A DNA stretch of 47,542 nt from Phycisphaerae bacterium. GTDB lineage: Bacteria; Planctomycetota; Phycisphaerae; Sedimentisphaerales; Anaerohalosphaeraceae. The DNA lies in NCBI GenBank assembly GCA_012517095.1, contig JAAYVQ010000289.1, positions 1 through 47,542 on the forward strand, written 5' to 3'. The translations under genes were made by a program, and so were the position numbers. Shown here piece after piece: positions 36,684-38,542 of the stretch. The first letter of the stretch is position 1, and each line of letters starts with the position of its first letter. Under the pieces are notes generated by a model. It ran no database searches, was not told the DNA's origin, and saw only the letters and a program-made list of their open reading frames with translations.

Positions 36684-38123
36684 TTAATATCGGTAATGCT
36701 CCGGCTTGAATGGCCCCTCAGCCGATATGCCCAGATAGTCGGCCTGTTCTTTTGTCAAACGGGTCAGCTTGACGCCGAGCCGGCCCAGATGCAGACGGGC
36801 GACTTCCTCGTCAAGCTTTTTGGGCAGGGTATAGACGCCGGGTTTCAGGTTTTCGCGGACGAGCATCATCTGCGCCAGGCACTGGTTGGTGAAACTGTTA
36901 CTCATCACGAAACTCGGGTGGCCCATCGCGCAGCCGAGATTGACCAGCCGCCCTTCGGCCAGCAGAATGATCGAACGACCGCTTTTGAGGGTCCACTTAT
37001 CGACCTGCGGCTTGATATTTTCCCGCTTGCATTTGGGATTCTCCAGCAGGTAACTGGTTTGTACCTCGCTGTCGAAGTGGCCGATGTTACAGACGATCGC
37101 CTCGTTCTTCATCCGCTCCATGTGCTGGCCGGTGATGACATTACAGCAGCCGGTGGCCGTGACAAAAACATCGCCGATGGGTGCCGCGGCGTCCATTGTG
37201 GTCACCTGGTAACCCTCCATCGTCGCCTGCAGGGCACAGATCGGATCGATCTCGGTGATCAGCACGCGGGCGCCGAATCCCCGCATCGACTGGGCGCACC
37301 CCTTACCGACATCGCCGTAACCGCAGACGACGACAATCTTTCCGGCAACCATCAGGCCCGTGGCCCGCTTGATTCCGTCGGCCAGCGACTCGCGACATCC
37401 GTACAGATTGTCGAACTTGCTCTTGGTCACCGAATCGTTGACATTGATCGCCGGAAACGGCAATTCGCCTTTTTCCTGAAGCTGGTAGAGACGATGCACA
37501 CCCGTCGTCGTTTCCTCGGAAACGCCGGTCAGATTGCGGCCGACAGTCGTCCAACGGTCTTTGCTGGTCTTGTAACTTGCGGCCAACCGGTCCATAATAA
37601 TGGCGAATTCCTTGTTGTCGTATTTTTTCTTGAGCAGCGACGGATCTTGTTCGACCCGCATACCCTGGATCACAAACAGCGTCGCGTCACCGCCGTCATC
37701 GACGATCAGGTCCGGGCCCGAGCCGTCCGGCCAGGTCAATGCCTGCTCGGTGCACCACCAGTACTCTTCCAGGGATTCCCCCTTCCAGGCAAAGACAGCG
37801 GCACTGCCGGCCTTGGCGATTGCCGCGGCGGCGTGATCCTGCGTCGAAAAGATATTGCACGACGCCCAGCGGACATCGGCCCCCAGTTCCACCAGCGTCT
37901 CGATGAGCATGGCCGTTTGCAGGGTCATATGCAAGCTGCCCATGACTTTCTTTCCCTTGAGGGGCTTTTTCGGGCCGTATTTTTCGCGGACGGCCATCAG
38001 GCCGGGCATCTCGTTTTCCTGCAGCGCAAGCTCGCGCCGTCCCCACGCGGCAAGCGAGATATCCGAGACCTTAAACTTTAATTTTGGTTCGACTTTCGCG
38101 ACCTTCTTCAACGACTGTTTCAT
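36684..38123 (-). CDS. ahcY: Adenosylhomocysteinase
   Basis: '[42 protein letters not shown]', '[40 protein letters not shown]', C-terminal 'FKPEHYRY'. ATG 38123 has AGGA about 8 nt upstream. Confidence 0.97.
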
Positions 38124-38158
38124 TCCCATATCCTTTCGATGATGGATTTCACTGTCAT

Positions 38159-38187
38159 ACTATAGATTCAATATCGGTCGGGAACAA
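38159..38187 (-). promoter_or_regulatory. Promoter for ahcY (TTGTTC-17-TATAGT)
   Basis: Minus TTGTTC (38187-38182), 17-nt spacer, TATAGT (38164-38159). Confidence 0.55.
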
Positions 38188-38249
38188 TTCGAAGGATCAT
38201 AGAATGAACCGGCCGTTGATGGACTCAACCGAAGATTGATCCGTGCGCA

Positions 38250-38376
38250 AAAAAATAAGGGAGTCGGGCGATTTATCCAATGGGTTGTGGGCTCGACTCC
38301 CTGATTGCGATCGTGCCTTTCTGCATCTTACCGCGGTTGATGCTTTGGCAATTCATGCCGGTTTTGCACTCGCAAC
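38250..38376 (-). ncRNA. Candidate structured small RNA (about 127 nt) with own promoter and intrinsic terminator
   Basis: Minus promoter TTGCAT-17-TATAGT at 38411-38383. RNA folds as closing stem UUGCGA/UCGCAA + GUGC/GCAC, hairpins GGCA/UGCC and GCAUC/GAUGC, then terminator GGGAGUCG...CGACUCCC followed by UUAUUUUUUU. Confidence 0.6.
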
Positions 38377-38382
38377 ACTTAT

Positions 38383-38411
38383 ACTATACCACAAACGCCC
38401 TTTCGATGCAA
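38383..38411 (-). promoter_or_regulatory. Promoter of the candidate small RNA (TTGCAT-17-TATAGT)
   Basis: Minus TTGCAT (38411-38406), 17-nt spacer, TATAGT (38388-38383). Confidence 0.6.
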
Positions 38412-38430
38412 CCGGGCGGGAACAATTTTT

Positions 38431-38513: not shown

Positions 38514-38542
38514 TTGACAATCTTTCACAGACCGTCTATACT
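38514..38542 (+). promoter_or_regulatory. Near-consensus sigma70-like promoter for the GH-A gene (TTGACA-17-TATACT)
   Basis: TTGACA 38514-38519, 17-nt spacer, TATACT 38537-38542, 53 nt before the ATG. Confidence 0.7.

Follow-up and report, generated by a model that had tools for sequence, protein, structure and literature searches.

A small RNA appears to be encoded on the minus strand between a gene read as ahcY and a divergent glycoside hydrolase gene in the window, that is, the whole stretch of 47,542 nucleotides of planctomycete DNA that was analysed. The locus raises the question of whether this RNA is a gene of its own or a leader through which ahcY is controlled, and of the manner in which it might act. 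An earlier note on the same DNA had drawn a promoter, a junction of three stems and a terminator, and had left a new small RNA, a new riboswitch class and a terminated ahcY leader side by side as readings. The features of the locus are collected in Table 1. A further promoter-like site on the plus strand, TTGACA-17-TATACT (11/12) at 38514-38542, lies just upstream of the glycoside hydrolase gene.

Table 1. Features of the small RNA locus, in positions of the window
Feature	Position	Strand	Basis
Small RNA gene (model positions 1-133)	38245..38376	-	covariance models R1 and R2; homologues
Sigma-70-type promoter of the small RNA, TTGCAT-17-TATAGT	38383..38411	-	sequence and relatives
-35 box TTGCAT; 17-nt spacer; -10 box TATAGT	38411-38406; 38388-38383	-	
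P1 closing stem, UUGCGA (38375-38370) / UCGCAA (38310-38305)	38305..38375	-	covariation
P1 continued, GUGC / GCAC, with 2-nt bulge	38369-38366 / 38316-38313; bulge 38312-38311	-	
P2 hairpin, GGCA-UGAAU-UGCC	38347..38359	-	sequence; versions in relatives
P3 hairpin, GCAUC-AACCGCGGUAA-GAUGC	38323..38343	-	covariation
CCGCGG palindrome of the P3 loop, the proposed contact of a kissing-loop dimer	38331..38336	-	preserved self-complementarity
P4 terminator hairpin, AGGGAGUCG/CGACUCCCU, with the conserved stretch CCCACAAC...UU inside it	38258..38302	-	covariation
Terminator arms GGGAGUCG/CGACUCCC with UUAUUUUUUU		-	sequence
U-run UAUUUUUUU, predicted intrinsic termination	38249..38257	-	sequence; kept in nearly all copies
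Conserved GCGC directly 3' of the U-run	38245..38248	-	comparison of copies
Promoter-like site for ahcY, TTGTTC-17-TATAGT (8/12)	38159..38187	-	consensus match only
ahcY (S-adenosylhomocysteine hydrolase), chance neighbour	36684..38129	-	open reading frame; name from the earlier note, unconfirmed by domain search

No known RNA class had been recognised by eye, and the database searches agree. At the gathering score, no Rfam 15 family was returned for the window, and none for the RNA of 20 relatives; cmscan of the region at E ≤ 10 gave no relevant family and no aptamer of the SAM or SAH riboswitch type. The 6S RNA model (RF00013) does not match 38245-38376. Separate 6S RNA genes were found in 38 of 40 relatives, the host's own copy being at G000:C150:355-533, and the presence of such a copy in the same genomes led to rejection of a 6S identity. 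A strong conserved promoter, together with the single main copy that is usual in genomes of family f1, would suit a housekeeping RNA in a lineage-specific form of 6S, SRP or tmRNA. This reading is nevertheless very improbable given the 6S genes found elsewhere, the empty Rfam result and the failure to detect the RNA in several families of the order, where it is thus presumably non-essential.

The distribution of the RNA was followed with covariance models. A DNA search of 98 relatives turned up roughly a dozen clear homologues, from two families within the host's order; model R1 was built from 14 of these homologues and R2 from 100 members. The host copy scores E 5.7e-26 with R1 and 2.0e-24 with R2. 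Of the order's 161 genomes, 104 have the RNA according to R1 (E ≤ 0.1), including 33 of the 39 in the host's own family, with E-values mostly between 1e-17 and 1e-31; R2 likewise detects it in 104 of 161 (E ≤ 0.01). Two of the six genomes of the family in which no copy was detected are at least 90% complete. When the class was sampled evenly, a single genome outside the order, G174, was found to carry the RNA (E 1e-24). This copy, L099 at G174:C94:24049-24180, is the sole clear class A copy outside the order, and could be explained by horizontal transfer, misbinning or taxonomy. When 392 genomes sampled from the phylum were searched, every match fell in the host's own family. An exact-pattern scan of genome contigs gave 22 stretches, 17 of which, all in planctomycete records, the model confirms as real; the remaining five, including stretches from Bacteroidales, Rhodococcoides, Alphaproteobacteria and Myxococcales, were dismissed by the model as chance. 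The named records that bear the RNA are metagenome bins of Phycisphaerae, Phycisphaerales, Planctomycetota and Sedimentisphaerales, so that the host most probably belongs in or near Sedimentisphaerales.

The copies share the signals of a transcription unit. The best sigma-70 match reaches at least 9/12 upstream of 102 of the 109 copies (about 3% for shuffled upstream sequences), the promoter spacer is 17 nt in 91 of 109, the -10 box stands 6 nt from the RNA start in 102 of 109, and relatives carry TTGAC(A/T/C)-17-TATA(C/A/G)T at the equivalent site. The host's own promoter matches the consensus at 8/12 and was not listed by a promoter scan of the window alone. Transcription is predicted to start at G38376 and to stop within the U-run, near 38249; the RNA would thus extend from about 38376 to about 38249-38245, a length of some 128-132 nt (about 130), the median across copies being 133 bases. 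The GCGC that follows the U-run is found in 72 of 110 copies and at 4 of 77 other terminator-like sites of the same loci. A pairing of this GCGC with GUGCA of P1 was considered and found unsupported, GUGCA being kept in members without GCGC. The longest open reading frames of the RNA copies do not exceed those of shuffled sequences, and a coding small RNA was therefore rejected. Because the promoter boxes and their spacing are conserved, the terminator hairpin covaries and is followed by a U-run, and the reading frames resemble those of shuffles, the sequences indicate that the RNA is almost certainly an independent gene, transcribed from its own promoter, terminated and non-coding.

The fold was judged by comparison. 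Folded alone, the host sequence gives a minimum free energy of -42.6 kcal/mol with a z-score of -1.5, and 17 of 200 shuffles do equally well; as this is not significant, single-sequence folding was dropped as proof, and the RNA is judged real on its homologues, covariation and conserved promoter. Covariation among the copies shows that P1, P2 and P3 meet in a three-way junction and that the terminator hairpin P4 comes after it. In 99 distinct sequences, standard pairs fill 94.6% of cells, a figure favoured by the fitting of the alignment to the model, and two-sided changes are seen at 24 of 26 pairs. Cells with two-sided changes number 262 as compared to 66 in shuffles, and the signal is lost when the partners are slid. 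P1 is paired in 96.4% of cells with two-sided changes at 10 of 11 pairs, and its pairs 6/121 and 7/120 rank first and second among 8515 column pairs in class A. All five pairs of P3 show two-sided changes, three of them significant against a tree-aware null, and the lower stem of P4 is paired in 98.1% of cells, with pairs 132/218 and 141/208 significant. The tree-aware null keeps the events on a FastTree phylogeny and reassigns the columns, using a G-statistic with average-product correction. When the test is restricted to the named structure, following the two-set test of R-scape, 7 of the 26 pairs (in P1, P3 and P4) pass E ≤ 0.05, and all seven lie within the top 12 of the 8515 column pairs; with no structure named, over all 8515, only two pass, both of them structural.

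P2 varies between genera in sequence and length. It changes rapidly in family f1, unlike in family f7, where it is nearly invariant (for example in L060, L072 and L079): the sequence there is GGAGAUCAGUKGGUCUC, in which a U-G pair is constant and the tetraloop is AGUN. In f7, P2 may serve for the binding of a protein or a target.

The observation of the earlier note is thus confirmed, and its interpretation is supported in part. Its positions for the promoter, the RNA start, P1, P2, P3, the terminator and a separate ahcY promoter-like site all agree with the sequence. Conservation beyond close relatives and compensatory changes in the stems, both of which it had marked for checking, were looked for and found (104 of the order's 161 genomes carry the RNA; 24 of 26 pairs show such changes, seven of them significant). 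Its independent, structured and terminated small RNA is upheld by the homologues, the covariation and the conserved promoter.

The same cannot be said of the cis-acting alternatives it had kept, in which the RNA is a leader of ahcY, either a riboswitch or an attenuator sensing S-adenosylhomocysteine, SAM, adenosine or homocysteine, with read-through of the terminator. The arrangement in the host invites this reading, as ahcY lies on the same strand as the RNA, with its start 116 nt further downstream, and the RNA ends in a terminator. However, ahcY adjoins the RNA in this genome only: the homologous copies of other genomes are flanked by no ahcY homologue, nor by the glycoside hydrolase seen here. 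The genes that lie closest downstream of the RNA in 105 copies fall into 67 clusters and about 42 of the 105 are oppositely oriented, so that neither the identity nor the strand of the neighbour is fixed, and a conserved site upstream of a methyl-cycle gene, as would be expected of a riboswitch, is not seen. The Rfam SAM and SAH families, moreover, go unmatched even at the permissive threshold given above, and the terminator stem is clear of P1 and P3, so that no alternation of junction and terminator can be made out. A leader or riboswitch was therefore rejected on synteny and is exceedingly improbable. Shared synteny is lineage-specific only, with what we read from the translations as ligA-ribD upstream in part of family f7, and a presumed AmmeMemoRadiSam-like gene downstream of the RNA in one genus of f1. 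The varied neighbours, with ahcY beside the RNA only here, point to an independent gene, most likely trans-acting; given such a gene, action in trans is very probable.

The copies fall into two classes. In class A, which includes the copy in the window, the P3 loop is 11 nt long and the P4 loop contains GGCCYACAAY. Class B has P1, P4 and the promoter in common with class A, lacks the palindrome and often the whole of P3, and carries GGGUGA...UCGCC inside P4; its loci (L103-L104, L106, L108, L111, L113-L117, L119-L130 and others) are diverged paralogues. Some genomes hold several copies with both classes together (G044, for instance), and G101 has up to six copies of the family by R2; the genomes of f1 usually have one main copy.

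The P3 loop carries the feature that bears most directly on a mechanism. A self-complementary hexamer, CCGCGG, occupies this apical loop in 70 members, including the 11-nt loop of the host, and being nearly fixed leaves most members uninformative about pairing. The informative members are the eight with loops of 11-12 nt that have departed from CCGCGG, all of which retain a self-complementary hexamer. Six are perfect palindromes (CCUAGG in L003 and L121, CCAUGG in L096 and L098, UCGCGA in L118, ACAUGU in L109), and two need G-U pairs (CCUGGG in L112, UUGCGA in L090). Shuffling of the loops gives P 1.7e-4 for 8/8 with G-U allowed and P 1.5e-5 for 6/8 with Watson-Crick pairs, values that are only indicative because the test was framed and the 11-12-nt filter picked after the loops were seen, L137 (class B, 12-nt loop) was excluded, and one genus supplies two of the eight departures, the lineages not being fully independent. 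Before the size filter was introduced, the test gave 6/9 self-complementary (P 0.004). Self-complementarity is not kept in class B and in shorter P3 loops. Paralogues within one genome can differ, as in G101 (CCGCGG in L065, ACAUGU in L109) and G135 (CCGCGG in L102, UCGCGA in L118), which is what self-recognition predicts. A kissing homodimer is proposed because self-complementarity is retained when the loop changes, and the chances are somewhat in favour of the RNA homodimerising through this loop. Dimerisation would be dispensable for whatever role P1 and P4 serve, since class B keeps both and loses the palindrome.

Other explanations of the conserved loop and of the RNA as a whole have been weighed against this. 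A trans-acting RNA that stays monomeric, its palindrome binding a symmetric protein dimer or a target site, accounts for all the evidence for an independent gene and for a class B without palindrome. It is less probable, yet a serious competitor, and the differing palindromes among lineages and among paralogues are better explained by self-pairing than by a fixed site for a protein or target. The P3 loop also contains, at 38328-38336, the sequence CCGCGGUAA, which we take to be the universally conserved 530 loop of 16S rRNA (E. coli 525-533), and the loop might on that account mimic or pair with the 530 loop and act on ribosomes, IF1 or the methyltransferase RsmG. The loops of most members, with CCGCGGUA(A), are nearly identical to the rRNA loop, whose hexamer is the same palindrome and could equally pair with the RNA loop, and the rRNA motif is present in the host genome as well as in two others whose RNA loops are variant. 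In those two, G044 (CCUAGG) and G137 (CCAUGG), the RNA loop has nonetheless changed while the 16S motif is normal, and the changes preserve self-complementarity, not the match to rRNA. The likeness was, besides, spotted only in hindsight, and no more than eight palindromic hexamers, CCGCGG among them, consist wholly of G and C. An action through the 530 loop is accordingly improbable, and the match is probably a coincidence, as the variant loops drift and the rRNA does not where its motif could be found.

A protein-titrating RNA, such as a sponge for CsrA, would find its protein in 33 of 40 relatives, and one A(N)GGA stands at the foot of P4 in nearly every member. CsrA sponges, though, carry several GGA motifs, in loops. 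Here the motifs are few (one GGA in 58 of 110 RNAs, two in 42 of 110) and the conserved GGA forms part of the paired P4 stem, while CsrA occurs also in families without the RNA and was not found in the host genome, which is 93.5% complete. Several GGA in exposed loops are thus not seen, and this reading too is quite improbable. Dependence on Hfq finds no partner either: Hfq (PF17209) was detected in none of 40 relatives of the order by a search that was positive in five control genomes.

The reading preferred here, which we hold to be probable, is a free-standing trans-acting regulatory RNA built on a three-way junction, most likely a kissing homodimer. In the mechanism proposed, the sigma-70-type promoter and the intrinsic terminator would deliver the transcript described above, which would fold into the P1/P2/P3 junction, as the covariation indicates, and then into P4. 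Two molecules would dock by their P3 loops, most likely as the homodimer, and the dimer or the monomer would act, without Hfq, on targets encoded elsewhere. Targets would probably be recognised by base pairing with conserved stretches left unpaired in the RNA, for instance CCYACAAY in the loop of P4. There is an even chance that the members form a new family of about 130 nt in this planctomycete order, Hfq-free and acting as kissing-loop homodimers, with paralogues separated by their palindromes.

Several known systems offer comparisons. Reviews cover palindromic dimers joined by kissing loops, the retroviral dimer initiation site among them (PMC7357161, PMC4066764); that site resembles the present loop in its GC-rich self-complementary hexamer, its unpaired flanks and a palindrome kept through change, and differs in having a 9-nt loop (11 nt here) and in belonging to a viral leader, not to a bacterial small RNA of about 130 nt whose dimer is proposed. 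GOLLD, ROOL and OLE are large bacterial RNA homo-oligomers (PMC12286853). They are likewise free-standing structured bacterial RNAs, with homo-oligomers demonstrated where ours is a proposal, but are much larger with ornate folds, and the present RNA, without a match in Rfam, has no sequence relation to them. Searches of the open literature on small RNAs of Phycisphaerae, Sedimentisphaerales and Planctomycetes yielded no description of this RNA, subscription papers lying outside the search and a report there being possible; the main text of two surveys of structured RNAs does not mention the phylum, and a 2010 survey names it once, for another motif. With independent trans-acting bacterial small RNAs the present RNA shares a sigma-70 promoter, a Rho-independent terminator, an intergenic site, the lack of a fixed neighbour and the occurrence of paralogues; unlike them it is specific to one order, belongs to a lineage in which Hfq was not found and has a covarying three-way junction. 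It resembles 6S RNA in being small and structured, with a sigma-70 promoter and a housekeeping-like conservation, and differs from it in fold and in coexisting with separate 6S copies.

To our knowledge, very little is known of the small RNAs of Planctomycetota, and conserved homodimerisation is rarely seen in small bacterial RNAs. The family is absent from Rfam and could be added to it using the present alignment. The evolution of the sequences itself points to homodimerisation of a small bacterial RNA. Given how little is known of such RNAs in the phylum, and that Hfq was not found in the order, a conserved and strongly promoted small RNA family with paralogues provides a concrete entry to riboregulation in the planctomycetes.
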